Source of the DNA: Streptomyces niger
GTDB lineage: Bacteria > Actinomycetota > Actinomycetes > Streptomycetales > Streptomycetaceae
Direction of reading: 5' to 3'
DNA length: 64,000 nucleotides
Assembly (NCBI RefSeq): GCF_000718305.1
Contig: NZ_JOFQ01000028.1
Span: 1 to 64,000 of the forward strand
In this document: one piece after another, positions 294 to 33,085 of the stretch
How the letters are laid out: every line of letters starts with the position of its first letter
How positions within the stretch are numbered: the first letter of the stretch is position 1
The notes under the pieces: model-generated
The model's input: the letters and a program-made list of their open reading frames with translations, nothing else
What the model was told of the DNA's origin: nothing
Databases searched by the model: none
Program-made: the position numbers and the translations under genes

Positions 294-761
294 TCATGGC
301 CTCGCTGAGCGTACTTCCAGCCCGGAGAGCATGGTTGCACCGTCATGGACGCGCATCGGCACTGTGTGCTTGGCGGCGAGCGCGTCCGTCAGACGCGGGC
401 GATACAACGGATGCAGCGCATTCAGGGCGTCGGGCACCTCGGCCCAACGGGCCTCGCTGGCCTCGGCGGTGGGACGCGGAGTGCCTGAAGTCATTGTCGC
501 GATGAACACGGCTGCGAGAATTCCGCGGTTGGGGTGCTGATACAACCCGACGAGGCCGTGGACGTCCACAGCCACGGTCGTCTCTTCCAGGGTCTCGCGC
601 GCGGCAGCCGCGCTGAGGCTCTCTCCGGGCTCGACCAGGCCACCTGGCAGTTCCCATCGTTCCGGGGAACGGCGGAGAGTGATGAGCACGTGTCCCGACT
701 CATTGAAGGCGACGCAGGTCGCGCCCAGCTTGTAGGCCGTGGATGTCATGGGGTGTTCCAA
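294..761 (-). CDS. tunN: TunN-like Nudix hydrolase
   Basis: A 155-residue Nudix hydrolase with a canonical box (G-x5-E-x7-R-E-x2-E-E, GGLVEPGES...RETLEET) at about residues 40-62. Tunicamycin TunN is proposed to hydrolyse a uridine nucleotide to UMP, which a phosphatase then turns into the uridine used for the undecose core. It is last in the cluster, 44 bases after tunM. The frame opens with TTG at 761, about nine bases after GAGGAAG; an in-frame ATG at 749 with a weaker site is the alternative. Nudix substrates cannot be read from the box, so the role rests on gene order. Confidence 0.85.
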   Translation of the reverse strand: MEHPMTSTAYKLGATCVAFNESGHVLITLRRSPERWELPGGLVEPGESLSAAAARETLEETTVAVDVHGLVGLYQHPNRGILAAVFIATMTSGTPRPTAEASEARWAEVPDALNALHPLYRPRLTDALAAKHTVPMRVHDGATMLSGLEVRSARP

Positions 762-805: not shown

Positions 806-1462
806 TCACTGCGGCTGTACCGGGGAGGTGTTGCGGTAGATCAAAAGGTATCGCCAGAACAGGAGGCGGCGGACGGTGCTGCCCGGCAGGAAGGACGCCG
901 CGCTCTCCTTGATCTCCGGCAAGGTCATCGAGGGGGCGGAGGTCGGGGCTTCCGGCAGGGCTTCGGCCTGTCGGGCGCGGGCCATCCGATTTCCAGTGGT
1001 CTTTCCCTTGAGTGCGCTCGCTGCTTGGAACACCGCATTGACCGGGACCGCGAGAAGACTCACCAGCCAGTCCATGACAGTTCGCTCCCGGTAGCATCCG
1101 AGGATCACCAGAACCCCGTTCGGCCGCAGAGCGGCTCGCAGGGCGCTGACGGTGCGGAAGGGGACGTGGTGAATGCTGGCGAGGCATGAGATGTAGTCGT
1201 ACGTGTTCCGCGGCGGCTGCGTACGGGTGATGTCCCTGTGCGCAAAGCGCAGGCGGCCGGTTTCCGGCGTCTCTTCATAACGTCGGCGGGCGGCGGTAAT
1301 GACCTCGGCCTCGGCGTCGATGGCGTCGACATCGATGCCGCGCGCGGCGAGAGCGTAGGCAAATCGACCGCTTCCGCAGCCCACATCCAACGCCTTACCG
1401 CAGTTCTCAGGGAGTTCGCCGAGTAAGAGAGGGTGATAGTGGTCGTTGTGATTGAAGGCCAT
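806..1462 (-). CDS. tunM: TunM-like SAM-dependent methyltransferase
   Basis: A 218-residue class I methyltransferase. Motif I, ALDVGCGSGRF, lies at about residues 24-34, an acidic strand-2 end (DVDAID) follows, and a post-motif YISCLASIHH segment matches motif IV. Tunicamycin itself has no methyl group that clearly needs this enzyme; TunM is thought to help assemble the core, and its exact reaction is not evident here. I start at the ATG at 1462 because the frame upstream is not protein-like and would run into tunL, whose stop is at 1470. Codon 13 is TTA (positions 1424-1426), so translation may depend on the bldA tRNA. Confidence 0.88.
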   Translation of the reverse strand: MAFNHNDHYHPLLLGELPENCGKALDVGCGSGRFAYALAARGIDVDAIDAEAEVITAARRRYEETPETGRLRFAHRDITRTQPPRNTYDYISCLASIHHVPFRTVSALRAALRPNGVLVILGCYRERTVMDWLVSLLAVPVNAVFQAASALKGKTTGNRMARARQAEALPEAPTSAPSMTLPEIKESAASFLPGSTVRRLLFWRYLLIYRNTSPVQPQ

Positions 1463-1469
1463 GGTCGCA

Positions 1470-2168
1470 TCATGGCACGGAAGGACCACGGGCCCGGGCG
1501 GACCCCTCGTTGCCGAGAGGTGGCAGCCAAGGGCGCGGTGTTCTTCGGCGGGTGAGAAGCAGTGCGGCCAGGGCCAGCCAGCCCCCCGAGAAGAGCTGGC
1601 CGGCCAGCACATCGACGGCGTGATGCACTCCCAGCAGCACACGGCTCCACGAGACCAGTTCGGCCAAGGACATGGCGAGCAGTAGGATCGCCGTGGAGTG
1701 CCGGTGACCGACGAATGCCGTCACGCTCACCGCGGCAAGCAGGAAACCCGTGGTGACTCCCACGGCATGTCCGCTGGGGAAGCTGAATCCGCTTGCGTCG
1801 ACGGAAGCGCACGCGAACTGCGGCCGTTCACGCGCCACCCAGTCCTTGATCAGAGTGCAGCTCACCGTTGCGGCATACGGGATGGCGACAAAGACGACTG
1901 CGGGCACGAAGTGACGACGGACGGCTGCCAGCAAGGCAGATCCGACGGCCAGCAGGGTCACAGGCCACGGATCTCCCCAACTGGTCACCAACCTGACCAG
2001 CAGCGAGACTGCCGATTCACTCCCCGCCCATCGGCAGAGGCTTTCGCTCACCCCGGAGTCGAGCCGAAACACCAATGCGGTGAGCAAGAGACCGAAATGC
2101 AGGGCTGACCACCAGCACAACAGCCGGGCTGTCGGCGGTGGCGCTGCCCCGCCGGCGGGGCGGGTCAT
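1470..2168 (-). CDS. tunL: TunL-like PAP2 phosphatase, membrane
   Basis: A membrane phosphatase of about 232 residues in the PAP2 (type 2 phosphatidic acid phosphatase) family. The three catalytic motifs are visible: K-x6-R-P (KDWVARERP), PSGH, and SR-x5-H-x3-D (SRVLLGVHHAVD). Several hydrophobic segments surround them. TunL is proposed to act on a lipid pyrophosphate such as undecaprenyl pyrophosphate, either for self-protection or for lipid recycling, since tunicamycin blocks polyprenyl-phosphate HexNAc-1-phosphate transferases. The start at 2168 overlaps the tunK stop as ATGA, which indicates translational coupling; an in-frame upstream start at 2183 is less likely. Confidence 0.88.
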   Translation of the reverse strand: MTRPAGGAAPPPTARLLCWWSALHFGLLLTALVFRLDSGVSESLCRWAGSESAVSLLVRLVTSWGDPWPVTLLAVGSALLAAVRRHFVPAVVFVAIPYAATVSCTLIKDWVARERPQFACASVDASGFSFPSGHAVGVTTGFLLAAVSVTAFVGHRHSTAILLLAMSLAELVSWSRVLLGVHHAVDVLAGQLFSGGWLALAALLLTRRRTPRPWLPPLGNEGSARARGPSVP

Positions 2169-2410
2169 CGCGTGGCCGCGCACTCTCTGACGGCTTCCAT
2201 AAGCTGTCGCGGCGAGCTTATCGACCGGAGGGTGGCGTCCTCGATCTCGCAGTCGAAGCTGTCTTCTATCCGGCTGATGATTTCGACCTGGTTGAGAGAG
2301 TCGAGGTCGAAGTCGCTGAACTTGTCATCGAGCCGGTCCCCCGTGATGCCTGTGCCGGTGATCTCTTCCATCAGGGGGCTGAGGGCGTCGATGAACTCTT
2401 GCTCGGTCAT
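2165..2410 (-). CDS. tunK: TunK acyl carrier protein
   Basis: An 81-residue acyl carrier protein. The phosphopantetheine attachment serine is in DLDSLNQVE, at about residue 38 and preceded by an acidic stretch typical of the family. It presumably delivers the long, often branched acyl chain that TunC transfers to the amine exposed by TunE. It sits between the exporter permease and the PAP2 phosphatase, with an ATGA overlap to the latter. Confidence 0.9.
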   Translation of the reverse strand: MTEQEFIDALSPLMEEITGTGITGDRLDDKFSDFDLDSLNQVEIISRIEDSFDCEIEDATLRSISSPRQLMEAVRECAATR

Positions 2411-2441: not shown

Positions 2442-3230
2442 TCAGGAACGTTTGGCGGTGCTTCTTTGCGGTCGGGCGCGCCAGTGCATGCGTGTGCTGG
2501 TCAGGGCCCACAGAGCGAGGGAGAAGGTGGCCAGTATCGCCATGTCGGCGAGTGCGGCGCCGCCGGTCCGTCCGGTCAGGGACGCACGCAGAGCGGACGA
2601 CGCGTAGGTGGCGGGGTTGAAATGGCCTATCCACACGAGGGCTTCGGGCAGCAGTGCCGGCGGTACCGCCACCGGACCCAAAGCCATCATGAGCAGCGTG
2701 GTGGCCAGGCTGAGCGATGACGCCTGCTCGATGGACGGTGATCGGCTCCCGATGAGTGCGCCGAGTCCGGCCGAGGGCAGGAGGGCCAGGAAGAGGCAGA
2801 GCGGCAGGAGCGGTGAGGGGTGGAGCGGGATGTCGAGCAGGACCGACCCGATGACGGCAGTCACGGTGACGGCAGGGAGGGACAGCAGGGAGAACGCCGC
2901 CAGGGTCGCGAGTATGAGAGCTTCGCGTCGTATGGGCATGGCCGCGTAGTACTCGAATGCGCCGGTGTTGCGCATGAAGGAGAAGTTGCTGGCAATCTTG
3001 TTCTGCGTTTCGAACAGGATGGCCATGGTGACGCTGCCGGTAACCACGTATTCGCTGGCTTCAGAGCCGGAACTGCGGGCGAACAGCCCGAGTGCGGCGA
3101 GGCTGACCACCGGGGCGAGGACCCCGGTCAGTACCATCTGTGGCCACGACCACCGCCAGTTTGTGAGCTGGATTCTGAAAAGGTCCCAGACCTGTCGGCC
3201 GAAGTGGGGCCTTCGTAATTCGTCACGCAT
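2442..3230 (-). CDS. tunJ: TunJ-like ABC-2 exporter permease
   Basis: A 262-residue ABC-2 type membrane protein with about six hydrophobic segments and a soluble N-terminus (RDELRRPHFGRQVWDLF) that probably contacts the ATPase. It starts inside the end of tunI with an eight-base overlap, so the two are coupled. TunI and TunJ are the proposed exporter of the antibiotic and likely contribute to self-resistance. Confidence 0.87.
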   Translation of the reverse strand: MRDELRRPHFGRQVWDLFRIQLTNWRWSWPQMVLTGVLAPVVSLAALGLFARSSGSEASEYVVTGSVTMAILFETQNKIASNFSFMRNTGAFEYYAAMPIRREALILATLAAFSLLSLPAVTVTAVIGSVLLDIPLHPSPLLPLCLFLALLPSAGLGALIGSRSPSIEQASSLSLATTLLMMALGPVAVPPALLPEALVWIGHFNPATYASSALRASLTGRTGGAALADMAILATFSLALWALTSTRMHWRARPQRSTAKRS

Positions 3231-4134
3231 AGTTGATGTACACGTCCTCCAGCGTCGCGGTGTTCATCGTGAATTCCGGAAAACAGGTCAGGTCCATTTC
3301 CTGGGCGAGCTTGGACACATCTGCCGAGGAGAGGAAGGCGACGACCTTTCCTCGGTGGCACGAATGTACGCGGACGTAGTCGGGCAGGACGGGCGCTTCT
3401 GTACCCGGATGAGTGAATGACAGCCGCACTTGGGAATCCAGTGGGGCCTTGAGTTCCGCGGGGGCTCCGAGAGCGACCAGCGCGCCGTCGCGCAGTATGC
3501 CGACGCGCTCGATCACCTGTTCCGCCTCGACGGCATTGTGCGTGATGAGGACGATGGTACGGCCCTCGCGCTGGTTCAGCTGCCGAAGCAGGGTCCATAC
3601 CTGCCGACGACGCGACGGGTCCAGTTCATTGGTGGGTTCGTCCAGGACGAGGACGGGCGGCGAACCGGTCAGAGTGACCGCGAGCTGCAGCAGCCTGCGC
3701 TCGCCGCCGGAAAGTTGCCGGGCCACTTTGGTGGCCAAGTGATCCAGCCCGAGCAGCTGAAGACATTCGTCCCGCTGGTGTCTTGCGGCTCGCGTGGACA
3801 ATCCTCGTAGATGAGCGCTGAAATAGACGGCCTCCCGCACGGTCAGGCTGTTGAGGGCGAAGGCGTTCTGCGGCATGTATCCCACGGTGTGTGTGGTGAA
3901 ACGCGGATTCGTAAGGATATCCTTGCCGAAAAGCCGCACGCGGCCGTGGTCGGGCCGGATGAGCCCGAGCATCTGCTTGATCAGGGTGGTCTTTCCGGCG
4001 CCATTGCTGCCGAGCAGGCCGAAAAACTCGCCCTCACGGATATGGAAGGAGATGTCCGTGTTCGCAGAGGATGAGGTCTCCTTGTATTTCTTGCTGAGGC
4101 CTTCCACCTCGTAGACGTACGGCCGGTCGGGCAT
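3223..4134 (-). CDS. tunI: TunI-like ABC transporter ATPase
   Basis: A 303-residue ATP-binding subunit. Walker A (LLGSNGAGKTTL), signature (LSGGERRL), Walker B (VLVLDEPTNELD) and the switch histidine (LITHNAVEAEQ) are in order. A C-terminal extension of roughly 90 residues resembles drug-exporter DrrA-type ATPases. The ATG at 4134 is preceded by AGGGGAG and leaves two bases to the tunH stop; an in-frame start ten codons upstream lies inside tunH and is less likely. It pairs with the adjacent permease. Confidence 0.9.
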   Translation of the reverse strand: MPDRPYVYEVEGLSKKYKETSSSANTDISFHIREGEFFGLLGSNGAGKTTLIKQMLGLIRPDHGRVRLFGKDILTNPRFTTHTVGYMPQNAFALNSLTVREAVYFSAHLRGLSTRAARHQRDECLQLLGLDHLATKVARQLSGGERRLLQLAVTLTGSPPVLVLDEPTNELDPSRRRQVWTLLRQLNQREGRTIVLITHNAVEAEQVIERVGILRDGALVALGAPAELKAPLDSQVRLSFTHPGTEAPVLPDYVRVHSCHRGKVVAFLSSADVSKLAQEMDLTCFPEFTMNTATLEDVYINYA

Positions 4135-4136
4135 AC

Positions 4137-5696
4137 TCACTCCCCTTGTGCTGTGCGGCGCCATATGTGCTGGACTAACGAGGCGGCACCGGTGATGTCC
4201 TTGGGAGGCTCGTGCAGCGCCGGGGTGCGGCCGAAGTGGCGTAGGAAACCGCTCATGCTGGAGCAGGCGGGTACGTAACCGTGCGACGCGGACGCCACCT
4301 GCTGCCGGGCCGGCTGCTGGTCGCCGTACTGGAATTCGATGTGCGGGCCACAGGCGATGGCGAGGCGTCCCACTCGCGGACTGTGCGGAGGGAGCCCCAT
4401 CCTTTCCAGCGCGGCCGGCTCCAGTACCGAGACTGTCGAGTCGAGAGCGCTCAGACGATCGGTGAGCAACCGTCTCTCGGCCGGCCGCAAGGGGGAGTCC
4501 GCGTAAAGGTACGCGCAGTTGCTGTCACCCTGGAAGACCATACGGTCGAGAAGCCCCGCGTCTGCCAGCGCCCGGTTCGGACTCAGGTGGGTCTCCACGA
4601 AATCGATGCCGTGGTCGGAGAAGAAGAGGAACTCCGTGTCCAGTCCGACGGTGTGGGCGAGCCGGGCGACGCATGCGTCGATCCGGGCGTAGACGTCAAG
4701 AATCTGCTGCCATGCGAGGACCCGTTCAGCGGGGGTGCCACGGGTCGCATACCAGTAGAGGAACTCCTGCGCGTGGTCGGCCTGATTGAAACGCACGAGC
4801 AATACGTCGGGGTCGTACTCGTCCAGCACCGCGAGGGCGGTTCGCTCCACCCACTCGGCTCTCGGGGACTCGTGAAAGGTGTGCTGGGGGTTGGCGGTGT
4901 ATTCGACGGACAGTGATGCCGGACCACTGCCGAACGGAATCACCGAAGGGCTCAGGCCACCGAAACCCATGGTGATCACCGCGGTCCCGAACCGCAGTGT
5001 CACTGCGCCGGGGGCTTTTCGCTCCGCGGTCACCGCGACGGAAATTCGACCGATCGGAGTGTCCAGGTCCAGACGCGTCGGAGCTTCCAGGGCAAGGGGG
5101 ACAGGCGGCCCCCCGTCGGCAACTACCGATATGCCCTTGCCTTCTCGGGCTACCGTGACGCGCAGCTGCAATTCATGCCCCAAGTAGGAGAGCGTCACCG
5201 GGCCGCTCCCGGCTACCGGCCCGTCAGCGGTCACCGACACGGTGGCCTCGTGCGAGGGGGCATACAGACAGTAACAACTGGGTATGTCGTGCGCTGGTTG
5301 CGGGACACGGGAGAACGTCTGCGGGAAATGCACGGCGGCAACTGAGACGCCCTGCTCGGCGAACCAGTCAAGAAGGCTCGGTGCGGTCAGCGAAGCACGT
5401 TCATAGGGATGGAAGGCCGAGAGGGGATCGTCGGCACGGCGTCGGATCTCCGCCACGCTCTGTGTTTCCCAGAACCGGTTGCCCACGATCCCGTGCGCCA
5501 CGGGGTAGCCACCGGTGAGGAAGGAGGCGTGCGAGGGTGCGGTCGAGGAAGGGTAGATGCTCGGCAGTTCGTGCACCGGCGAGCCGGTCAGGCCCGGCAT
5601 CGTGCGCGCCAGGTTGAAGAAGTCGTGGTGACGGACGACGGTGGGCAGCCCACCGTCGATACAGAAGATCACCATACGCCTGCGTGCACTCGTCAT
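4137..5696 (-). CDS. tunH: TunH-like type I phosphodiesterase / nucleotide pyrophosphatase
   Basis: A 519-residue member of the alkaline phosphatase superfamily, phosphodiesterase branch. The N-terminal metal ligand (FCIDGG), the region of the catalytic threonine (PSSTAPSHASF), a second metal site (FFSDHGID) and a late SHGY histidine are visible. TunH is proposed to remove the nucleoside diphosphate from the UDP-activated tunicamine-uracil intermediate. A middle segment of about 120 residues rich in beta strands (about residues 150-270) appears inserted in the fold. The start overlaps the tunG stop by four bases (ATGA). Confidence 0.87.
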   Translation of the reverse strand: MTSARRRMVIFCIDGGLPTVVRHHDFFNLARTMPGLTGSPVHELPSIYPSSTAPSHASFLTGGYPVAHGIVGNRFWETQSVAEIRRRADDPLSAFHPYERASLTAPSLLDWFAEQGVSVAAVHFPQTFSRVPQPAHDIPSCYCLYAPSHEATVSVTADGPVAGSGPVTLSYLGHELQLRVTVAREGKGISVVADGGPPVPLALEAPTRLDLDTPIGRISVAVTAERKAPGAVTLRFGTAVITMGFGGLSPSVIPFGSGPASLSVEYTANPQHTFHESPRAEWVERTALAVLDEYDPDVLLVRFNQADHAQEFLYWYATRGTPAERVLAWQQILDVYARIDACVARLAHTVGLDTEFLFFSDHGIDFVETHLSPNRALADAGLLDRMVFQGDSNCAYLYADSPLRPAERRLLTDRLSALDSTVSVLEPAALERMGLPPHSPRVGRLAIACGPHIEFQYGDQQPARQQVASASHGYVPACSSMSGFLRHFGRTPALHEPPKDITGAASLVQHIWRRTAQGE

Positions 5697-6328
5697 GTCT
5701 GGGCCCCGTCAATCCGTGCCACGCCGCCGGAGGCAGCAGAGGAGGAGGGAGCGGACGGGGCAGGCGTCAAGTTGTGCCGGTGCAGCAACCATGTGCCGGC
5801 CGGGCATCCGGGGCGGTACTGCCAGTGGGTGATTCCCACATGCTCCACTTGCAACTCCATTCTCTTTCCCCCGCCGCCGATCAATTCGTGCATGGCGTCG
5901 AAGAATCCGCTGTGGGTGACCAGCACAATGCGACGCTCCGCCGCCGGCTCACGGCACAGATCGCTCAGGCACCGGGCCACTCTGCCCAGGAACTCGTCCC
6001 AGGATTCGACTCCGCGTGGATGCCGGCTGTTCCGGCGTTCTCTGGGTGGCGGCAGCCCGCGGTCGCCGGACTCGCTGACGATTTCGTTGAGTCGCGGATC
6101 CTCCTGGACGGGGAGACCGAGTGCCCCCGCCAGGACATCGGCGCACTGGCGGGCCCGGGTAAGCGAACTCGTGCGCAGTTCGGTGATGCGCCGGCTTGCG
6201 AACCACCGGGCCGCGTCCGCCGCCTGCCGCCGTCCGACAGAGGTGAGCAACCGCATGTCGCCGTCACAGCGGGGCCCGACGGAGTTCCGTGGAGTGTCCT
6301 CGGCATGACGCATGAGAAAGATATGCAT
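5693..6328 (-). CDS. tunG: TunG-like histidine phosphatase
   Basis: A 211-residue phosphatase of the phosphoglycerate-mutase branch. The phosphohistidine motif is LMRHAED at the N-terminus, with an SSLTRARQCAD helix and a second histidine in LVTHSGFFD. Its assigned role in the tunicamycin pathway is dephosphorylation of UMP to uridine after the TunN step. The ATG at 6328 has GGGGTGAG just upstream and is one base from the tunF stop; longer in-frame openings lie inside tunF and are rejected. Confidence 0.87.
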   Translation of the reverse strand: MHIFLMRHAEDTPRNSVGPRCDGDMRLLTSVGRRQAADAARWFASRRITELRTSSLTRARQCADVLAGALGLPVQEDPRLNEIVSESGDRGLPPPRERRNSRHPRGVESWDEFLGRVARCLSDLCREPAAERRIVLVTHSGFFDAMHELIGGGGKRMELQVEHVGITHWQYRPGCPAGTWLLHRHNLTPAPSAPSSSAASGGVARIDGAQT

Positions 6329-6329
6329 C

Positions 6330-7313
6330 TCACCCCAAGGACGCCGGTACGTCGCTGTGCCAGGCCCAGGAGGTACGCACGATGTCGTCGAGACCGTACT
6401 CGGTCTGCCAGCCGAACCTGCGGTGCGCCAGTCCGGGATCGGCCCACGATACGGCCGGATCTCCCGGCCTACGAGCGGCAGGGATCGCCTCGACGTCGTG
6501 CCCCGACACCTTGCGCAGCGCATCGAGGAGTTCCGCGACGCTGGTGGGTTGCCCGCCGCCGAGATTCACTGGTCCGGACCACTCGTCACGGTCGAGGCGG
6601 TGCAGTACTTGGACGTGCGCGCGTGCGAGGTCCTCGACGTGGACATAGTCGCGCAGCGCTGTGCCGTCCTCCGTCGGGTAGTCATCTCCGAAGATGCGGA
6701 TAGCGGGGGCGAGGCCGAGCACCGAGCGAATCGCCACTGGGAGGATCTGACGCGTGGTGCGGTCGGTGTATTCCCCGAGAGAGGAGTCCACTGCCGCGCC
6801 CGCGGCGTTGAAGTAGCGGAGGTTGGCGTAGCGCATTCCGGTCGCCCGGCCGTATGCGGCGATCATCCGCTCACACAGGTATTTGGTCTCCCCATAAGGG
6901 CTCTCCGGACGTATCGGCGACTCCTCGTCCACCGGACAGATCTGCGGTGTGCCGTACACGGCGCAGGACGAGGAGAAGATGAACCTTTCCACGTCGGCTT
7001 CGGCGGCGGCGGCCACAACGTTCTGGGTGCCGGTGACATTGACCCGGAAGTAGGTGTCGATCTCGCTCAGCGACGCCTCCGAGGACTTCAGCGCCGCAAA
7101 GTGGAGAACGGCCTGCGGCCGGAACGACCGGCACACCGAGCGCAGTCCGTGCGAGTCGAGGATGTCGAGGACTTCCAGCGGGCACTCTCCGACGGCCTCG
7201 CGTCGGCCGCTGCTGAGATTGTCGATGACGACGACCTCATGTCCTGCTCCGAGGAGTTGACGCACGGTGAAGGAACCGACGTACCCCGCTCCCCCGGTCA
7301 CGAGAACTCTCAT
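6330..7313 (-). CDS. tunF: TunF-like UDP-hexose 4-epimerase
   Basis: A 327-residue GalE-type short-chain dehydrogenase/reductase. It has the NAD motif TGGAGYVGS, the SSCAVYG serine region and a catalytic YGETK (YxxxK). In the tunicamycin pathway TunF epimerises C4 of the TunA product, giving the galacto-configured exo-glycal nucleotide that is joined to the uridine aldehyde. Stop and start overlap with tunE as ATGA. The sequence is close to primary-metabolism GalE, so the specific substrate is inferred from context. Confidence 0.9.
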   Translation of the reverse strand: MRVLVTGGAGYVGSFTVRQLLGAGHEVVVIDNLSSGRREAVGECPLEVLDILDSHGLRSVCRSFRPQAVLHFAALKSSEASLSEIDTYFRVNVTGTQNVVAAAAEADVERFIFSSSCAVYGTPQICPVDEESPIRPESPYGETKYLCERMIAAYGRATGMRYANLRYFNAAGAAVDSSLGEYTDRTTRQILPVAIRSVLGLAPAIRIFGDDYPTEDGTALRDYVHVEDLARAHVQVLHRLDRDEWSGPVNLGGGQPTSVAELLDALRKVSGHDVEAIPAARRPGDPAVSWADPGLAHRRFGWQTEYGLDDIVRTSWAWHSDVPASLG

Positions 7314-8017
7314 GCGGCATGTCCTTTCCGGATTTCCCCGATTGGTGAGGAAGTCCTCAGCTCTCTGCCGAGGACGAACGCCTCAGCGGCGTGAACGCCG
7401 GCTTGAACGCCCCGGAAGGCCGCCTGCGCGCGGATGGCAGTCGCGGAGCGCGGGTGCGGTGGCTCGTGCACCTCGTACTCGTATGCCTCCAGGGCCCGGC
7501 ACTTGGCATCCACGTGTCCCTGCACGTCGTAGAAGACCTGAGGGTGGAACGGTGCCACGAGACCGGTCTGCTGCTCAGTGGAGGACAGCACCTCGAAGTG
7601 GAGCACCTGGCGCACGGAGCCGCTGCCGAGCATGCGTGTCCCATAGTTCACCGCGTGTGCCACGAGTCGATGATCCACATGAATGTCGCCGGGGTGGTGT
7701 GTGAAGACGAGCTCCGGTTCGTGCTCGCGCAACTGCCGGTGCACCGTATCCACGATCCGGCGCTGTGGAACCTCGCACAGCAGGCGGTCGTCCGAGGCGA
7801 ACTCCCCGAAGGAAACACCGGAAACCCCCAGTTCTTCGGCGGCCGCCTCACACCTGGCCCGGGCTTCTTTCAGCGTCACTCCCGAGTGCCGGAGGGACAC
7901 ACCCTCCGCCAGGACGTGAATGTGCACATCCACGCCCTGCGCGCTGAGCAACGACACGGTGGCACCCGCACCGAGCGTCTCGTCGTCCGGATGGGCGGCA
8001 ATGACAAGTGCCTTCAT
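7310..8017 (-). CDS. tunE: TunE-like PIG-L/LmbE N-deacetylase
   Basis: A 235-residue zinc deacetylase of the PIG-L/LmbE family. The metal-binding AHPDDE motif is at residues 8-13 and the second site is HPGDIHVDH. It removes an N-acetyl group from the glycosylated core so that TunC can attach the fatty acyl chain. ATGA overlaps connect it to tunD on one side and tunF on the other. Confidence 0.92.
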   Translation of the reverse strand: MKALVIAAHPDDETLGAGATVSLLSAQGVDVHIHVLAEGVSLRHSGVTLKEARARCEAAAEELGVSGVSFGEFASDDRLLCEVPQRRIVDTVHRQLREHEPELVFTHHPGDIHVDHRLVAHAVNYGTRMLGSGSVRQVLHFEVLSSTEQQTGLVAPFHPQVFYDVQGHVDAKCRALEAYEYEVHEPPHPRSATAIRAQAAFRGVQAGVHAAEAFVLGRELRTSSPIGEIRKGHAA

Positions 8018-9414
8018 GCAAGCACCGCCGGGCCTGAAGTGTCTTCGGACAGTGTGGAGGGGCGTACCAGAGCGCCCATGGCATACAGGTCGGTCATCAG
8101 CCGGCGCGGCACCCGGTTCTCCGCGTCCAGCAGCAATAACGGATCACGTGCCGTAACGGCCGCCCGCACCACGGTGAAGGCCTCGGCGTCGAGCTCCATG
8201 AGCTGCGAGGTGCGCGGAACGAAGACGAAACCACCGGCTGCCTCCGCACGCAACCGCACGTTCTGCCACGCGAGTTCGGACAGTACGGGCCCCAGCGGGA
8301 GCCGGGCCAAGGCGAGCAGGTCGAACCGGTGCACCAGGTATTCCACGCGCTGTGCGACGCGATGCCCGGCCAGGATGGACTCGCGAGCCGCATTCCCCAT
8401 GGCGGCGGCTGCAGCGGGCTCGGCCACCAGCTGCTCCATCGCCTCCCGTAGATCGACTTCGTCGACCACGAGCAGCCCGTGCCGCTCGTCCTCGACGAAC
8501 TCGGGGATGCCGCCTTGCGCGCTGGCCAAGACCGGGAGGCCGGCCGCCATGGCTTCCTTGAGGGCAAGCGGCCCGGTCTCCGGCACCGTGGTGGTGAGAA
8601 CGGCGGCGTCGCACGCGACGATCAGTTCGGCGACGTCTGCCCGGTGGCCGGGGAAAGAGATCAGATGCCCCACCCCCTGTTCTTCCGCATGCGCGCGCAG
8701 TTCTTCGGCCATCGGGCCGTGCCCGGCCACGACGACCCTCACCGAGGCCCTCCTGGACGCGTCCATCGCACCGACAGCGTCGATGACCTGGCCCACGTCC
8801 CCGTCCCAGGTCAGCCGGCCGAGCGCCAGGAAGGCGAAGCAGTTGTCGCTCAGTCCCAGGGCGGCACGCGCAACCTTGCGATCGGCAGTGCCGAGCGCAT
8901 GCAGGAAGTCGTCACCGACAGCGTTGGTCACCAATTCCACCTGGTCGTCCGCCAGGAGGCCGGCCGCTATGAGGGGAGCGAACTGACGCTCACGCTGCTC
9001 GTCCGACATGGCGAAGACGAGGTGCACATCCGCCATGAGGTCGCGTACTTCGTCGGCCGTGCCCAGGGGATGAACCGAAGGGGAAAACAGTGCAAATGCC
9101 TGCTTACCCTTGATCCGGGCCAATGCCTGGCGTACCACCTGAGCGTCCGAACGGCCGGTGGTGCAGACCACATGGGCATCGCCTGCTTCGAGCACGTGCA
9201 CCGCGGCTGTCACGGCCTGTTGCGGCTGATCCGCACAGGGCGGCAGACCGACGACGGGCAGACCCGCCTGGCGGCACGCCTCCAGCATGGCGCCGCCCTC
9301 TTCGGCCAGGACGGTTACAGCATGTCCGGACACTGCCAGCCCGCCCGCCACATCCAGCAGGTAGCGCTGCTCACCTCCCCAGGCCTGACCAGAGACTGTA
9401 AGGATGATGTCCAT
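8014..9414 (-). CDS. tunD: TunD-like GT4 glycosyltransferase with PqqD-like tail
   Basis: A 466-residue family-4 retaining glycosyltransferase. The N-terminal Rossmann half starts MDIILTVSGQAWGGEQ, and the nucleotide-binding half has PETGPLALKEAMAAGLPV, the E-x7-E motif of GT4 enzymes. TunD forms the unusual 1,11 trehalose-type bond, using UDP-GlcNAc as donor in known producers. The last 90 residues are outside the GT fold: GGFVFVPRTS, ELDAEAFTVV and a final L-x3-GAL helix follow the order of a small PqqD-like domain. The start at 9414 shares a base with the tunC stop (TAATG). Codon 426 is TTA (8137-8139). Confidence 0.9.
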   Translation of the reverse strand: MDIILTVSGQAWGGEQRYLLDVAGGLAVSGHAVTVLAEEGGAMLEACRQAGLPVVGLPPCADQPQQAVTAAVHVLEAGDAHVVCTTGRSDAQVVRQALARIKGKQAFALFSPSVHPLGTADEVRDLMADVHLVFAMSDEQRERQFAPLIAAGLLADDQVELVTNAVGDDFLHALGTADRKVARAALGLSDNCFAFLALGRLTWDGDVGQVIDAVGAMDASRRASVRVVVAGHGPMAEELRAHAEEQGVGHLISFPGHRADVAELIVACDAAVLTTTVPETGPLALKEAMAAGLPVLASAQGGIPEFVEDERHGLLVVDEVDLREAMEQLVAEPAAAAAMGNAARESILAGHRVAQRVEYLVHRFDLLALARLPLGPVLSELAWQNVRLRAEAAGGFVFVPRTSQLMELDAEAFTVVRAAVTARDPLLLLDAENRVPRRLMTDLYAMGALVRPSTLSEDTSGPAVLA

Positions 9415-10388
9415 TAATTGCGCACCCCCTTGCCGAAGATGCCGGGGCAGGAGCCCGGGATGGTCCACAGAGAGCCCATCAAACGCAGCGCTTGCCGCCG
9501 ATGACTCACCCCGCCGAGCACGGCGTAGGGCATACCGCTGTCCCGGGCCTCACTCAGACACTGCTCTATGAGCGTGCTCGCCACCGCCAGCGCGTGCCCG
9601 CGCACAGAGGGAGCCAGCGCGATCGAGGACAGCATCCCCAGGCGCGCGGTGTCGTAGGAGATGAAGCCGAGCAGCCGGTCCTTCGCGGGAAGGTCCCTGT
9701 CCTGGTCGACGATGATGACGGAGGAGATCGGATCGCGGGAGAACGACCGGTGGACCTCGCTCGCCCAGCCGCCGCCGAACGTCTCGCGGATCCAGTCCGT
9801 CAGCAGGAGCTGCTCGCTGGTCTCCGGCCTACGGACGCATAGGCTACGGCCGTCGACGCCCAGTGCCGCCGCGTTGCCGGCTGGCGTCCATGTCCGCAGA
9901 TCGACAAAGAGGTCGGCCCACTCCAAGCTCTTGTCGTCGCGGTCCGCGGCACTCAGCGATGTGTTTCCGGTGGGCACCCACCAGACGGCGTTCTCGACGG
10001 CCGCCGGCAGCTGGTCCGCGAACTCTTGGACGTCCAACAGGCCATAGGCGTACCCCAGCCACCGGAGGCGTTCGAGGGCCAGCTGCATCAACGTCCAGTG
10101 GGCCTGGGGCCGGCGGCCTGCATCGACGTCGGGCGCGACCTCGCAGGGCCCGACCGTGCCGGCCCCCCAGGAATTGATGGCGCACCTGCCGAACACGGCG
10201 CCCCCTTGCCGCAGTTCGACCCAGGACTTGCCTTTCGGCACAGCCGATGGCTCGTGGACCACCCGCAGTGGTGCAGAGCTCCACACGGATGCATCCTGTC
10301 CGTCAGGGGGAACTGCGACCGCCGGGGAGGCAGCCTGAAACTCGAAGGGCGGCAGATCGTACAGGCGGACGAGCGCTTCTCCGGGCAT
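9414..10388 (-). CDS. tunC: TunC-like N-acyltransferase
   Basis: A 324-residue protein whose C-terminal half looks like a GNAT acyltransferase: a beta strand (SSVIIVDQDRDL...GFISYDTARLGMLSSIAL) followed by a VRGHALAVASTLIEQCL helix in the acyl-CoA or pantetheine loop position. TunC attaches the fatty acyl chain to the deacetylated core, taking it from TunK or from CoA. It starts two bases after the tunB stop. The N-terminal half I can place only by gene order. Confidence 0.85.
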   Translation of the reverse strand: MPGEALVRLYDLPPFEFQAASPAVAVPPDGQDASVWSSAPLRVVHEPSAVPKGKSWVELRQGGAVFGRCAINSWGAGTVGPCEVAPDVDAGRRPQAHWTLMQLALERLRWLGYAYGLLDVQEFADQLPAAVENAVWWVPTGNTSLSAADRDDKSLEWADLFVDLRTWTPAGNAAALGVDGRSLCVRRPETSEQLLLTDWIRETFGGGWASEVHRSFSRDPISSVIIVDQDRDLPAKDRLLGFISYDTARLGMLSSIALAPSVRGHALAVASTLIEQCLSEARDSGMPYAVLGGVSHRRQALRLMGSLWTIPGSCPGIFGKGVRN

Positions 10389-10390
10389 CC

Positions 10391-11407
10391 CTACCTCACC
10401 TCGAAGCCTTCGAATATCTGCCGGTCGAGGAGCGAGGTCAGAGGAGGGGCCGACTGCTCGCCGGCAGCGGCGAAGTCCCAGAAGATCTCACGCAGCCGCG
10501 CCTCCGTGAACTCCTCTTGCTCCTGCGCGAGCTGGTCCTGACCCGCCAGCCAGATCTTCTGTACGGGAGCGTCCTTGGTGTTGCCCAGCGGCGCCGCGCT
10601 GTAGAGCCGGCTCATCGTGACATCACCGGTGGCAGAGATCGCAATGCTGCTGTCGCGCACCAAGTAGGGGAACATAACGACGTCTTGGTAGGGACGCAGC
10701 TGCTCGCCGGGTACGAGGTAAGGAGCGTTCAGGTTCAGGTCGAAGTCGGTCGCGGGAACGGTCTTCTTGAACTGAGCCACCTTTTCATGGATGGCCATGG
10801 TCTCCGCCTCGGTGAGCAGCAGCAGATTGCGCCCGCCGCGACCGTGCGCCCGGACCAGGATGAGATCCTGGCGACGGAATCCTTGGGCACGCAGGTACTG
10901 CGCCAGGTCGAAGACATTGTGCTGGTTGGTCTTCATGACCGTGGTGAGCACTTTGAAACTCTGCACCCGGTCACGCAGGTAGATGGAATTCTCGACGACC
11001 GTGTCGAAGACGTCCTTGAGTCGCACGGCGGCAAACGTTTCGCGCGTCCCGTCCATGCTGACGCGAACCGAGGAGATTCCACTGTCCACGATGCGGTCGA
11101 GCTGCTCACGGGTGTGAGCGGCGGCATTGGTGATCAGTGTGACGGTCGCATGACGTAATTTCGGCACCACATCCAGGAGCTGCCAGAAGCCCTTGCGGAT
11201 GGAGGGTTCCCCGCCGGTCAATGTGATTTCGAATGTTCCCATGCGGTCCAGGTCGAGCATGATCTCTTGCAGCTGCTCGATCGACAGCATCTTTCGCCGG
11301 ATGTGGGCAGGCACCTCGCCGGTGTTGGTCCGGCAATGGATGCAGCGCAGATCGCAGGCGTAGGTGACGTCGAGACTCGCGCGCACAGGAGCGGTGTATC
11401 CGGCCAT
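10391..11407 (-). CDS. tunB: TunB radical SAM C-C coupling enzyme
   Basis: A 338-residue radical SAM enzyme with a CxxxCxxC cluster motif (C18, C22, C25; ACDLRCIHC) and a GGEP SAM-binding strand. TunB is the signature enzyme of the family and is proposed to join the exo-glycal sugar to uridine-5'-aldehyde. The C-terminal part (MSRLYSAAPLGNTKDAPVQKIW) aligns with the frame of a SPASM region but has no cysteines, and the three motif cysteines are the only ones in the protein. It therefore likely holds one iron-sulfur cluster. The start at 11407 overlaps the tunA stop as TAATG. Confidence 0.93.
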   Translation of the reverse strand: MAGYTAPVRASLDVTYACDLRCIHCRTNTGEVPAHIRRKMLSIEQLQEIMLDLDRMGTFEITLTGGEPSIRKGFWQLLDVVPKLRHATVTLITNAAAHTREQLDRIVDSGISSVRVSMDGTRETFAAVRLKDVFDTVVENSIYLRDRVQSFKVLTTVMKTNQHNVFDLAQYLRAQGFRRQDLILVRAHGRGGRNLLLLTEAETMAIHEKVAQFKKTVPATDFDLNLNAPYLVPGEQLRPYQDVVMFPYLVRDSSIAISATGDVTMSRLYSAAPLGNTKDAPVQKIWLAGQDQLAQEQEEFTEARLREIFWDFAAAGEQSAPPLTSLLDRQIFEGFEVR

Positions 11408-12369
11408 TAGTTCGTTTCCTCCAACAGAACGCGTCGACGTGTATCGTCCATGTCGCGTGATTCCCACCAGGAGAGCGTTTCGTGTACCCCCGTGGCCATG
11501 TCCACGGAGATGTGAGAGGGGGCAAGAAGGCGGTCCTGCAACGTCGTACCGGCCCGGAACTCCGAGATTTCGTTGACTCTTCCGGGCTTGCGCACCGTCT
11601 CCGCCGTCGGGGAGATGTCCCGCAAGAACCCCACGACCTCGCTCACCGAATATGAGTGACCAGACCCCAGATTGATCACGGGAGCGATGTCACCGTGCGC
11701 GAGCATCTCCAGTTTGCGGACCACGTCCGAGATATACGTGAAGTCGCGTCGCTGCTGCCCGTCCCCCTCGATGGGCAGTTCGTTTCTGAGGAGGAGATTC
11801 GCGCACAGCCGTGGCACCAGGGCGTCGGGACGCTCACCCGGCCCGTACACATTGAAGAACCTCACCACCCCGACCTCGGGGAAGCCGCCGGCCCTCTGGT
11901 GCGCTTGTGCCAGCATCTCCAGCGCGACCTTGCTGGAGGCGTAGGGCGAACGGGGAGACAACGGGGCGTCTTCAGGAGTAGGCAGTGTCTCGGCCTGGCC
12001 GTAGACCTCGCAAGTGCTACCCACAATGACTCTCTCCACCCCGACGCCGGCGCACAGGTCCAGCAGATGTCTGCCGGAGTCCACGTTGTCCAGATAGTCG
12101 AGAGGCTGTCTGAAGGAACGGGGGACGCTTTTGTGCGATGCCAAGTGGTAGACCAGACGCACACCTTCCACGTCCTGCTCCGTCATGTCCAGCACCGGTT
12201 TCTCAAGGAACTTTCCTGTGCCTTCCGGGCTGATCAACGGTTCGGCGCGGAGGTCGTCGACAACGACGACATCGGCCTGCTCGGCGACTAGGTGGCGTGC
12301 GAGGTGGCCGCCGATGAAGCCGGCGCCGCCAGTGATGAGCACGCGGTCACCTGATAAGTGATCCGACAT
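11407..12369 (-). CDS. tunA: TunA UDP-GlcNAc 5,6-dehydratase
   Basis: A 320-residue short-chain dehydrogenase/reductase that makes the 5,6-ene of UDP-6-deoxy-GlcNAc, the first committed step. TGGAGFIGG binds NAD, the catalytic pair is in YASSK, and the stretches LVYHLASHKSVPRSF, STCEVYGQA and FFNVYGPGERPDALVPRL are as I recall them in the Streptomyces chartreusis enzyme. The ATG at 12369 follows GGGAG by seven bases. The 95-base gap upstream is the largest within the tun genes, so a promoter for tunA-N is likely there. Together with TunB and TunD it makes the cluster assignment firm. Confidence 0.94.
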   Translation of the reverse strand: MSDHLSGDRVLITGGAGFIGGHLARHLVAEQADVVVVDDLRAEPLISPEGTGKFLEKPVLDMTEQDVEGVRLVYHLASHKSVPRSFRQPLDYLDNVDSGRHLLDLCAGVGVERVIVGSTCEVYGQAETLPTPEDAPLSPRSPYASSKVALEMLAQAHQRAGGFPEVGVVRFFNVYGPGERPDALVPRLCANLLLRNELPIEGDGQQRRDFTYISDVVRKLEMLAHGDIAPVINLGSGHSYSVSEVVGFLRDISPTAETVRKPGRVNEISEFRAGTTLQDRLLAPSHISVDMATGVHETLSWWESRDMDDTRRRVLLEETN

Positions 12370-12464: not shown

Positions 12465-13190
12465 TCAGCCCTGGACGAGTTCGCTCTCCGGTAGGAAGGT
12501 GTCATGGTTCTCCCGGAACGCGATCCGTGCCTCTTCGAGCTGCTGTGGTGTTCCAATATCACGCCACTCACCCTCGAAGATGTATCCCCCGACAACACCT
12601 CCGGCGGTCCGTAGATTTTCGAGCAGCACAGGCATGTCGCAGGGAGTCTGGCCGGGCAGGCAGTCCAGGACCGTCGGTTCCACCACGTATATTCCGCAAT
12701 TGATCAGATGGTGGATACGGGGCTTCTCCTCGAAGGAGACGACACGGCTGTTGTCGTCGATCCGTACGACCCCATGCGCCAGTTCTGTGTCATGCGGGGT
12801 GATAACGATTGTGCTGTCGGCACCCGACCTGCTGTGGTGGGACATCACATCCGTGAAGTCCAGACTGGTCAGCAGGTCCGCATTCATCACCAGGGTGGCT
12901 TCTTGCAGCGGAGGTAGGAGCTTCAAGGGCCCGGCCGTCCCCATTCGTTGAGATTCCACGATGAAATCGAGTTCGAGGCTTCCCCAATTCACCGCGGCGC
13001 AGCTGGCTTTGATGAGGTCGGCTCGATGGCGCAACGAGAGGGTGACCTCAGAGAAGCCGGCGCTCCGCAACTGCCTGAGAATGATATGGAGTAAAGGAGT
13101 GCCTTCGAACTCCATCAGGGGCTTGGGTGTGATGGCGGTGGCCTGCCCTAATCGACGCCCCTCGCCTCCTGCTATCACTACTGCCTTCAT
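12465..13190 (-). CDS. Sugar-1-phosphate nucleotidyltransferase
   Basis: A 241-residue enzyme of the RmlA/ManC-like nucleotidyltransferase fold. The N-terminal signature is VIAGGEGRRLG, followed by the TPKPLMEFEGTPL loop, a metal-binding MNADL and a GEWRDIGTP near the end. It would activate a hexose-1-phosphate or hexosamine-1-phosphate as NDP sugar. It has no CBS or hexapeptide domain. Such a gene is not part of the tunA-N set. It lies between tunA and a 4,6-dehydratase on the same strand, so I infer that it supplies that enzyme. A GTG four codons upstream (13202) is an alternative start. Confidence 0.85.
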   Translation of the reverse strand: MKAVVIAGGEGRRLGQATAITPKPLMEFEGTPLLHIILRQLRSAGFSEVTLSLRHRADLIKASCAAVNWGSLELDFIVESQRMGTAGPLKLLPPLQEATLVMNADLLTSLDFTDVMSHHSRSGADSTIVITPHDTELAHGVVRIDDNSRVVSFEEKPRIHHLINCGIYVVEPTVLDCLPGQTPCDMPVLLENLRTAGGVVGGYIFEGEWRDIGTPQQLEEARIAFRENHDTFLPESELVQG

Positions 13191-13340
13191 ACGGTATCCC
13201 ACACTTTCGCGTTCATTCTGCGGGCGAGCCGAACCGTCGGCGTGGACGGACCATTCCGTAAATGCAATTCGGCAGGGCTGCTCACCGATCGCTGCGTACC
13301 TACCGGGGCCGTGGTGGCGATCCCGCGGTTATCCGTCAGA

Positions 13341-14339
13341 TCACACCTGATAGCGGTCCGTGGCGAAGAGATGCAGGTTCTCGGCGACCCATTCCGACGT
13401 ATTCTTGAGCCCGTCCTCCAGGGGTACGGCGGGTCGCCAGGAAGTCCACTGGCGTGCGCGGGAGTTGTCCGACTGGAGGCACTCCACTTCGCTGCCCTGG
13501 GGGCGCAGCCGGCTGGGATCCACCACAACCCGCGCGTCTCGGCCGGACACGGAGATCAACGTCTCGGCGAGCTCTCCGATGGCGATCGAGCGGCCGGTCC
13601 CGAGGTTGACCGCCTCACCTACGGCCCGGTCGCACTCGGCCATCGCCAGAAAACCAGCTGCGGTGTCCGTGACATAGGTGAAGTCGCGGGTCGGAAAGAG
13701 CGAGCCGAGCTTGATCTCCTTCGCTCCCGAGTGGAGCTGGGCCAGGATCGTGGGTATGACCGCCCGCGCGGACTGCCTGGGGCCATAGGTATTGAAGGGG
13801 CGTACGACCGTTACCGGCAGCTCAAAGGCGTGCCAGTGGGACAGCGCCACCATGTCCGCACCGATTTTCGACGCGGCGTACGGCGATTGGGGCTGGAGCG
13901 GATGCTCTTCGGTTATCGGGACCACGAGCGCGGTCCCGTAGACCTCGCTGGTGGAGGTGTGGACGAGACGACGAACGGAATGACGGCGACAGGCCTCCGC
14001 CACGTTCTCCGTGCCGCCGATGTTCGTCTGCACGTATGCACCGGGCGATTCGTAGCTGTAGGGAATGCCGATCAGCGCAGCCAGGTGGAACACGGTGTCG
14101 CAGCCTGCAACGGCGTCCATGACGCGGCCTGCGTCGCGCACATCGCCGGCAATGAACTCAACAGGGCTCGACGGGTGCAGGAAACGTGCGAGATAACCTT
14201 TCTCGGCGTATGGTTTGTAGTGCGCAAAAGCGCGTACGCGGGCGCCGCGCTCGACAAGCAGGTCGACGAGTGTGGATCCGATGAAACCTTCGGCGCCGGT
14301 TACTAAAACGGTGCGGTTGTTCCAGTCGAAGCTGTACAA
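13341..14339 (-). CDS. NDP-hexose(amine) 4,6-dehydratase, LegB-like
   Basis: A 332-residue SDR enzyme. TGAEGFIGS binds NAD, TSTSEVYGTA carries the catalytic serine/threonine region and YAASK the tyrosine and lysine. The block RPFNTYGPRQSARAVIPTIL and PTRDFTYVTDT is typical of 4,6-dehydratases of the LegB type, which act on GDP- or UDP-GlcNAc; RmlB-like activity on dTDP-glucose is the alternative. The product would be a 4-keto-6-deoxy sugar. The start is TTG at 14339, five bases after GGGGAG. No 4-ketoreductase gene is visible beside it, so reduction must come from elsewhere if the end sugar is a 6-deoxy-hexosamine. Confidence 0.85.
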   Translation of the reverse strand: MYSFDWNNRTVLVTGAEGFIGSTLVDLLVERGARVRAFAHYKPYAEKGYLARFLHPSSPVEFIAGDVRDAGRVMDAVAGCDTVFHLAALIGIPYSYESPGAYVQTNIGGTENVAEACRRHSVRRLVHTSTSEVYGTALVVPITEEHPLQPQSPYAASKIGADMVALSHWHAFELPVTVVRPFNTYGPRQSARAVIPTILAQLHSGAKEIKLGSLFPTRDFTYVTDTAAGFLAMAECDRAVGEAVNLGTGRSIAIGELAETLISVSGRDARVVVDPSRLRPQGSEVECLQSDNSRARQWTSWRPAVPLEDGLKNTSEWVAENLHLFATDRYQV

Positions 14340-14509
14340 GTCTACTCCCCGTGCGACGGTCGGTCAGAGATCGCACTGTCAACGGACGGAAGGGGATGCC
14401 CAATTATTTCCGGCTCAGCGGCGAAGCCGGGTACTGTGGCCACTCTCAGGCTCGCCGCGTCGGCCCTCGTTCTGCTGATGGGAAAGGCGCTGCAGCCGTC
14501 CACAATGGC

Positions 14510-15874
14510 TCATTGTGCTCTTGTCGGCGGCGTGGGGCGCATCAGCGCACCCATCTCGTGGAGCATTTCGACGGTGGCAGTGACATCGGTCTTCGGAAGG
14601 CCGAGCAGGCGCTTGGGAGTACGCGAAAGAAAGGAGTCCCGCACGATGCGATAGATCTCTGGCGACAGTTCAGAGATGGCCGAGGTCCGCGGGACGAATA
14701 CGAATCCGCCGTTTTCCTCGTCGCGGACACGGGCGTCGTCCCAAACGAGCTCATCCAGTGGCACGGTCAGCGGCATTTTCCTAATGGCCTGGCGGTCCAG
14801 GCAGTGGGCGAGGTGCCGGATGCGCTGTTCAAAGAGGTGCCCGCCGATGATTGTTTCCTGCGCGCGCCGGCCCATCTTTTTGGCCCGCTCCCGGTCGGCC
14901 GTGAGAGCTAGCATCGCCTCCACGAGTTCGGCGTCGTCGGACACCAACAGGCCATTGTCGCCATCCGTCACGAATTCCGGTATACCACCGGTCCGTGACG
15001 CGATGACCGGCTTGGCGACCGCCATGGCTTCCTTCAGGGCCAGGGGCTGCGGCTCCGGCACCACGGTCGAGAGTACGGCAACGTCCGTGGCCGCCAGGGC
15101 TGGAGAGACGTCAGGGAGATGGCCGGTGAACAGGGTTCGACCGGACAGGTCCAATTCCCGCACCAGCTGCTCCAATTTCTCGCGTTCCGGTCCGTCGCCG
15201 GTCAGGAGGAGTACAGCATCGTCCACGGCTTTACTCACTTGGACCATCGCACGTATGACCCGGTCGATGCCCTTCTCCCAGGACAGCCGGGAGGAAACGG
15301 TGAAGACGAAGGCGTCGACGGGGATGCCGAGTTCGGACCGCGCGACCTCCGGATCCACGGTGATGACGTGTTGGATGAACTTCCGGTCCACGCCACTGGT
15401 TACTATCACCATGTTCTTGTGCAACTCTTTGTGGTTGAACAGGCGGTTCGCCTGCTCAACAGAGGTTGCAATGACGAGGTCGGCTCGTTCCGCGAATTCC
15501 TTGGCGTCGCCGCTCTTTTCGAGCGGGAACGCCGAGAGGCGGTAGAAAACGGTCATCGGAGACCTGTGGCAGTCCTGCATGGCCACGTTCATCACGGCCG
15601 CATCATGACGGCCGGTCGCGCATACGATATGCGGGCCGTCCTGCGCATTCACTTCTTTTGCGATGGCGGCAGCCGCCGCCGCGCGATCCTCCGCGAAGGG
15701 AGCCACGGTCAGCGGCACGAATCCGAATTGCGCCAGTCTGGATTCGACCAATCCTCCGTCCTCCACGACCGGACACACCGAATGGCCGGAATCCCGCAGA
15801 CCAAGCAGCGTATCGAGCATGAACTGATGTTTCCCGCCCCACACACGGTCGGATATGGTGACAAGAATCCGCAC
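14510..15874 (-). CDS. Second TunD-like GT4 glycosyltransferase with PqqD-like tail
   Basis: A 454-residue paralogue of tunD. The N-terminus (VRILVTISDRVWGGKHQF), the donor-side motif PEPQPLALKEAMAVAKPV and the tail GGFVFVPRTS with a final MLHEMGALMRP all match TunD. It is first in the same-strand series and 170 bases ahead of the dehydratase. I infer that it uses the sugar nucleotide made by the two neighbouring genes to glycosylate the tunicamycin core or a related acceptor. The start is GTG at 15874 with AAGGGGG ten bases upstream; the longer open frame upstream has no protein-like character. Confidence 0.87.
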   Translation of the reverse strand: MRILVTISDRVWGGKHQFMLDTLLGLRDSGHSVCPVVEDGGLVESRLAQFGFVPLTVAPFAEDRAAAAAAIAKEVNAQDGPHIVCATGRHDAAVMNVAMQDCHRSPMTVFYRLSAFPLEKSGDAKEFAERADLVIATSVEQANRLFNHKELHKNMVIVTSGVDRKFIQHVITVDPEVARSELGIPVDAFVFTVSSRLSWEKGIDRVIRAMVQVSKAVDDAVLLLTGDGPEREKLEQLVRELDLSGRTLFTGHLPDVSPALAATDVAVLSTVVPEPQPLALKEAMAVAKPVIASRTGGIPEFVTDGDNGLLVSDDAELVEAMLALTADRERAKKMGRRAQETIIGGHLFEQRIRHLAHCLDRQAIRKMPLTVPLDELVWDDARVRDEENGGFVFVPRTSAISELSPEIYRIVRDSFLSRTPKRLLGLPKTDVTATVEMLHEMGALMRPTPPTRAQ

Positions 15875-33067: not shown

Positions 33068-33085
33068 CGGCTACGCTCAGCGGTC

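Follow-up and report, generated by a model that had tools for sequence, protein, structure and literature searches.

A Streptomyces niger tunicamycin-type gene cluster with an added deoxy-sugar module and a probably inactive TunD suggests exchange of the head-group sugar

The window analysed here spans positions 1 to 64,000 of a contig of 77,277 bases (NZ_JOFQ01000028.1) in the 8.49-Mb genome of Streptomyces niger, and carries a tunicamycin (tun) biosynthetic cluster. On the minus strand, genes for a second TunD-type glycosyltransferase (GT2), a LegB-like 4,6-dehydratase and a sugar-1-phosphate nucleotidyltransferase are followed by tunA to tunN, which run down to base 294. The cluster is a real, unusual tunicamycin-type variant with a specific account of head-sugar exchange: we favour, with moderate confidence, a reading in which the added trio supplies, and GT2 attaches, a 6-deoxy-hexosamine instead of N-acetylglucosamine (GlcNAc), the resident TunD being inactive. 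This would offer a compact explanation for the exchange, in which two enzymes supply the sugar, a new transferase takes over from a worn-out one, and two donor-pocket positions change along with the module. If true, donor choice in the TunD family would be predictable from sequence, and could point to strains that make tunicamycin analogues.

In the pathway that we propose, the nucleotidyltransferase would activate a hexosamine-1-phosphate, and the LegB-like dehydratase, judging by its family and motifs, would convert the NDP-hexosamine to an NDP-4-keto-6-deoxy-hexosamine. Position 11' of tunicaminyl-uracil would then receive the 6-deoxy sugar from GT2 instead of GlcNAc, either in the 4-keto form or once an enzyme encoded elsewhere had reduced it; with TunD probably inactive, no other head group would be made. 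The predicted product is a compound of the quinovosamycin type or a new substance closely related to it, its 6-deoxy-hexosamine reduced or still 4-keto. Quinovosamycins of Streptomyces niger, reportedly described by Price in 2016, are said to be tunicamycins with N-acetylquinovosamine (QuiNAc) on the 1'',11' bond, where ordinary tunicamycins carry GlcNAc. The compound predicted here from genes alone would share their 6-deoxy-GlcNAc-type head group, but its state at C4 may differ. The literature searched yielded no genes for quinovosamycins, the term occurring only in reference lists, and no gene explanation for GlcNAc exchange in tunicamycin-type compounds.

The resident TunD (8014..9414, minus strand; 466 aa; model pLDDT 92.1) has an altered donor-diphosphate site. 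Among 41 aligned TunD-like proteins, the column of the diphosphate-site lysine holds Lys in 40 and Gly only in the window TunD, where the corresponding segment (8773..8826, minus strand) reads RLTWDGD instead of RLSWEKG. In an hhalign comparison this lysine matches K236 of MshA (residue numbers of MshA taken from the 3c4q alignment). The residue pairs R196/K202 of PimA and R231/K236 of MshA are described as holding the pyrophosphate (PMC9883506), and for the GT4 enzyme PglH, whose structure is solved, the substitutions R191A and K196A are each reported to leave no detectable activity (PMC5792488). Besides K205G, the window TunD carries E204D, R111S, H112P and S164N, and is further altered at A114, F115, T136 and L364. 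A local double frameshift was considered as the cause of the changed motifs and rejected, neither of the other frames restoring them.

Judged from the alignments, what TunD has lost is conserved positions, its overall divergence being ordinary for the cluster (ratio 2.26, versus 1.47-2.33 for the other genes). At columns invariant in the seven other tun loci described below, it differs at 40/184 positions, compared with 97/1373 for a pool of ten other tun genes (Fisher 5e-9); gene by gene, the difference from TunD has p <= 0.0015 for seven of the ten. In the tree, the window TunD lies inside the ordinary TunD clade (support 100/100) on a branch of 0.72, whereas that of the nearest row measures 0.20; the fork has a support of 89/84. 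Because the diphosphate-binding lysine and other conserved residues are gone, we consider the window TunD to be probably inactive as a glycosyltransferase. As tunD is reported to be essential for tunicamycin in S. chartreusis (PMC6105854), another enzyme must do the work of the worn TunD if the cluster is active. The suggestion, made in the preliminary description of this DNA, that ordinary tunicamycin might be produced alongside through TunD is not borne out by a TunD lacking this lysine. With TunD probably dead, GT2 has probably taken over its function instead of sharing it.

GT2 (14510..15874, minus strand; 454 aa) matches PF00534 at 117.5 bits, has an AlphaFold model with a pLDDT of 95.2 and is 40-43% identical to ordinary TunDs. 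It groups with the glycosyltransferases of Streptomyces sp. NPDC054834 and NPDC091377 in a 100/99 clade, nested in a 96/94 group with those of S. viridifaciens, S. europaeiscabiei and others, so placing GT2 by phylogeny as a TunD-family GT4 enzyme from a branch other than that of the ordinary TunDs. In keeping with a TunD-type GT4, it retains the RxxxxK diphosphate pair (R196/K201) and the EX7E motif (E274-x7-E282). As a side observation, the S. europaeiscabiei glycosyltransferase lies on the GT2 side of the tree with no TunB on the same contig among the matches listed, and is possibly a TunD-type enzyme used outside a tun cluster.

Two positions set GT2 apart. The histidine column of the RHSAFP motif, in the same 41 rows, holds His in 36, Leu in 3 (exactly the module-linked GT2s), Pro in 1 (the window TunD) and a gap in 1. 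GT2 itself carries L113 at this N-domain position, that of the donor O6 contact, in the segment YRLSAFP (15524..15544, minus strand). The first glutamate of EX7E and the two columns after it read ETG in 37 rows and EPQ in 4, namely the three module-linked GT2s and one metagenome fragment; in GT2 the segment is EPQPLALKE (15029..15055, minus strand), in the loop by donor C4. In PglH, H118 is reported to bond the 6'-OH of the GalNAc donor and the carbonyl at E267+2 to set the choice between GalNAc and GlcNAc at C4 (PMC5792488), while His133 of MshA and His118 of PimA are termed equivalent and conserved (PMC9883506; PMC4506291). The GT2/TunD histidine column aligns with H133 of MshA in three of four MAFFT strategies with whole proteins and in 4/4 with the N domain alone, and we infer that the TunD-family histidine is the same as H118 of PglH.

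Taken together, the GT2 donor pocket appears to be altered on both its C6 and its C4 sides, and these alterations accompany the acquisition of genes for a 6-deoxy-sugar supply. By analogy with PglH, the changes from His to Leu and from ETG to EPQ are those that would be required of a transferase turning from GlcNAc to a 6-deoxy donor. Compared with TunD and the GT4 retaining transferases MshA, BshA, HepE and PglH, then, GT2 differs in these two features and the window TunD in its change from Lys to Gly. Two GT4 enzymes near nucleotide-sugar-dehydrogenase-like genes (L042:8788-9927 and L043:8284-9405), from the two non-tun modules that hold further relatives of the nucleotidyltransferase, also lack the histidine and read TPASA, a state to be expected if their donors have no 6-OH, which we regard as an anecdote rather than a test.

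Where a cluster holds an extra glycosyltransferase and a separate sugar supply for it, the product often bears one more sugar. GT2 might accordingly lengthen the glycoside by attaching a further sugar to the GlcNAc head group or at another site. We consider this improbable: GT2 groups with the TunD family, the known member of which acts on tunicaminyl-uracil, and if TunD is dead there would be no GlcNAc for GT2 to build on.

We then considered how the module is distributed. A pattern-based TunB profile scan of a genome collection covering 84,980 species returned 8 loci, of which seven were examined, six from Streptomyces and one from Actinosynnema pretiosum, with R. iranicus left out. The preliminary description had proposed a comparison of the trio with other tunicamycin producers; the set is found in 0/7 of the other tun loci in the ~9 kb inspected before tunA, the nearest feature being one short-chain dehydrogenase/reductase (SDR) gene in locus L009, ~2.8 kb before tunA, whose product is 33% identical to the dehydratase. 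S. clavuligerus, described as a known tunicamycin producer (PMC8069389), has TunB and TunD and no nucleotidyltransferase among the matches listed at 1e-45. The closest relatives among the matches listed include proteins of Streptomyces sp. NPDC054834 and NPDC091377, with identities of 62 and 59% for GT2 and of 60 and 60% for the nucleotidyltransferase. In each strain, the protein records of TunB, GT2 and the nucleotidyltransferase agree on strain and contig (80,029 bases in NPDC054834; 826,870 bases in NPDC091377), and this co-occurrence with TunB looks to exceed chance. The TunB proteins of the two strains share 92.0% identity, and their identities to the TunB of the window are 88.2 and 86.4%, respectively. 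No second TunD-like protein was found on these two contigs among the matches listed (90%-identity clusters), which only suggests that the two strains are without an ordinary TunD. The earlier claim that the trio makes and transfers a 6-deoxy sugar is thus supported in part, by the gene content, by the restriction of the module relative to the seven other loci and by the change at the O6 contact of GT2. A plasmid collection contained no GT2 match at 1e-30, and overlapping genus, family and order genome samples, in which some genomes were scored by their top 4 to 7 candidates, gave tun matches only in already known loci. Separately, TunB-like and TunD-like proteins are recorded for Corynebacterium striatum, a genus absent from the cluster table in the available part of the Rathayibacter paper.

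The enzymes of the supply pair were assigned by domain and motif. The dehydratase (13341..14339, minus strand; 332 aa) matches the GDP_Man_Dehyd and Epimerase families at 221 and 196 bits, the former being PF16363. Extended-SDR, NAD-dependent 4,6-dehydratases are marked by a Rossmann GxxGxxG motif, T-[DS]-E and YxxxK; the translation contains TGAEGFIG, STSE and YAASK, and the STSE and YxxxK motifs fit the proposed dehydratase role. The nucleotidyltransferase (12465..13202, minus strand; 245 aa) matches NTP_transferase at 108.9 bits. Its best NCBIfam model is of the ManC type (114 bits, against a cut-off of 440), and matches to MurU, GlmU and HddC models likewise stay under the respective cut-offs, so that the family scores do not decide which nucleoside triphosphate is used.

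Several observations weigh against the exchange of the head-group sugar as we propose it, a first group of which concerns the two transferases and their mapping. Taken singly, tunL and tunM are no different from TunD in their losses at invariant columns (p 0.27 and 0.18), and tunC differs with p 0.02. In a wider 24-row alignment, the window TunD has lost 8/52 conserved columns, a count that is not decisive in itself, because two distant rows have lost 6/50. The TunD reading frame is intact over its whole length. As for GT2, the H118A variant of PglH is reported to be about ten times slower, keeping about a tenth of the rate (PMC5792488), so that the donor-O6 histidine is not strictly needed. 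In the mapping of this histidine, one whole-protein MAFFT strategy failed, hhalign gave no alignment or a poor one in the N domain, and an earlier MAFFT run that included junk frames placed it three columns off. In NPDC054834 and NPDC091377, the co-occurrence with TunB was traced for GT2 and the nucleotidyltransferase, at the level of shared contigs; a hidden copy of TunD is also possible in these strains, above all in NPDC054834. Both transferases might also work, with TunD making GlcNAc-tunicamycin and GT2 a second, 6-deoxy series. The open frame, the confidently modelled fold and the retained EX7E motif of TunD all speak for this arrangement. We nevertheless regard it as unlikely, as TunD is without the lysine kept in the 40 other rows and without the histidine and other conserved residues, and the equivalent PglH K196A enzyme is, as noted above, reported to have no detectable activity.

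A second group of contrary observations concerns the dehydratase. Its match to the LegB model TIGR04180, at 422.1 bits over nearly the full model, resembles that of a LegB-type 4,6-dehydratase but stays under the equivalog cut-off of 475. Moreover, proteins like it at 1e-100, the closest found in this analysis, occur in 8/37 genomes searched, its own included, and in 8/8 of these loci (own + 7) the dehydratase relative adjoins a MurG-like transferase. The own-genome copy, 80% identical, is on another contig, and the MurG-like transferases of the seven other loci are 67-80% identical to that of the own genome; no reductase was noticed beside the pair among the listed gene starts of the 8 loci. 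Given these neighbours, a MurG-like/dehydratase pair on the chromosome is the probable source of the tun-linked dehydratase. The conserved pairing of a MurG-like transferase with a LegB-like dehydratase is an observation in its own right, the own-genome locus lying on contig C5 at 249309-250292. In the preliminary description, a dehydratase that clusters with enzymes of unrelated surface polysaccharide pathways was named as a refutation of its reading; this is partly what we see, without the idea being refuted by it.

The same neighbourhoods could mean that the trio belongs to an unrelated envelope-sugar pathway and has nothing to do with tunicamycin. Two further features are in line with this. 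The spacings around the trio are 170, 138 and 95 bases, in contrast to the tun genes, which mostly overlap or touch, and two further relatives of the nucleotidyltransferase lie in non-tun sugar modules (2/2 loci read) together with a nucleotide-sugar-dehydrogenase-like protein, an SDR and a GT4 enzyme, some of these genes having been named by eye from sequence. Yet GT2 is of the TunD type, relatives of GT2 and of the nucleotidyltransferase occur on one contig with TunB in each of two other strains, and the trio lies on the same strand directly before tunA; we therefore judge an unrelated pathway to be very unlikely. A scan of the trio for promoters and terminators gave signals at or below chance.

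The dehydratase could also act on the 5,6-ene made by TunA and not on an NDP-hexosamine, giving a 4-keto-6-deoxy sugar with a changed C5. Its best PDB sequence match is Pal (6bwl, 147.9 bits), and the Pal enzyme of Bacillus takes the product of Pen. Set against the strength of the LegB model match, and with the nucleotidyltransferase left idle in such a scheme, this can hardly be the role of the enzyme.

Also unfavourable to the proposed exchange is that no ketoreductase lies within the trio. The preliminary description had already called a 4-ketoreductase missing, which holds for the set; in the genome, a search limited to the RmlD type gave 21 PF04321 matches, none convincing, the best of them (66.8 bits) being TunF itself. 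A narrower version of the head-group exchange, to which we give only tentative credence, would do without such an enzyme: if GT2 transferred the NDP-4-keto-6-deoxy-hexosamine directly, no ketoreductase would be needed, and the head group would keep its 4-ketone or be reduced after transfer. Such products would form a separate sub-class of tunicamycins, the C6 and C4 sides of the donor pocket having changed jointly. TunD would then be a pseudo-enzyme persisting within the operon, and the cluster an evolutionary intermediate between TunD-only clusters and the apparently GT2-only strains.

Open frames and domain matches confirm the earlier statement that tunA-N is complete on the minus strand and preceded by the trio. 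All of tunA-N have domain matches, that of tunC being weak (20.4 bits, against a cut-off of 20.7), and the gene order is matched by orthologues in the seven other loci, with tunG and tunK found in 7/7 and tunN in 6/7; in the Actinosynnema locus, tunM is not at the expected place. The genes for a TunB-type radical SAM protein and for tunA, C, D, E and H, a set reported as essential in S. chartreusis (PMC6105854), are present, as expected of a tunicamycin-type (tunicaminyluracil) cluster. Like the S. chartreusis cluster (PMC6105854), the window holds all 14 genes, in the order seen in the seven other loci; unlike it, the window has three extra genes before tunA and a TunD without a conserved catalytic residue. 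The trio is not listed in the available parts of the accounts of the S. chartreusis (PMC6105854) and Rathayibacter clusters.

In order from the trio, and all on the minus strand, the genes other than tunD encode an epimerase/dehydratase family protein (tunA, 11407..12369), a radical SAM protein of 338 aa (tunB, 10391..11407), an acyltransferase (tunC, 9414..10388), a PIG-L type deacetylase (tunE, 7310..8017), a GalE-type epimerase (tunF, 6330..7313), a histidine phosphatase (tunG, 5693..6328, its start picked by eye at MHIFLMRHAE), a phosphodiesterase/pyrophosphatase (tunH, 4137..5696), an ABC transporter ATPase (tunI, 3223..4164), an ABC-2 permease (tunJ, 2442..3230), an acyl carrier protein (tunK, 2165..2410), a PAP2 phosphatase (tunL, 1470..2183), a methyltransferase (tunM, 806..1474) and a NUDIX hydrolase (tunN, 294..761). 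Base 1 of the window is the contig end, so genes past tunN are not visible. These assignments follow from domain matches and from orthologues in the other loci.

At their C-terminal ends, TunD (8014-8295, minus strand) and GT2 (14510-14770, minus strand) share a domain of ~75 residues with the element order strand-strand-strand-helix-helix-helix, for which GT2 has no Pfam match. This order recalls PqqD/RRE domains, the presence of which next to the radical SAM protein TunB would be strange; a PqqD/RRE-like identity found no support from Pfam or PDB profiles and was set aside. An ISL3-type transposase zinc-ribbon protein is encoded ~1.4 kb upstream of GT2 (17272-17874, plus strand) and may be a trace of the arrival of the module. 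Further along the window, at 30114-33529 on the plus strand, genes for a radical SAM protein, a thymidylate-kinase-like kinase, a protein with only domain I of phosphoglucomutase, a sulfatase-like protein and a NUDIX protein resemble a second small biosynthetic island.

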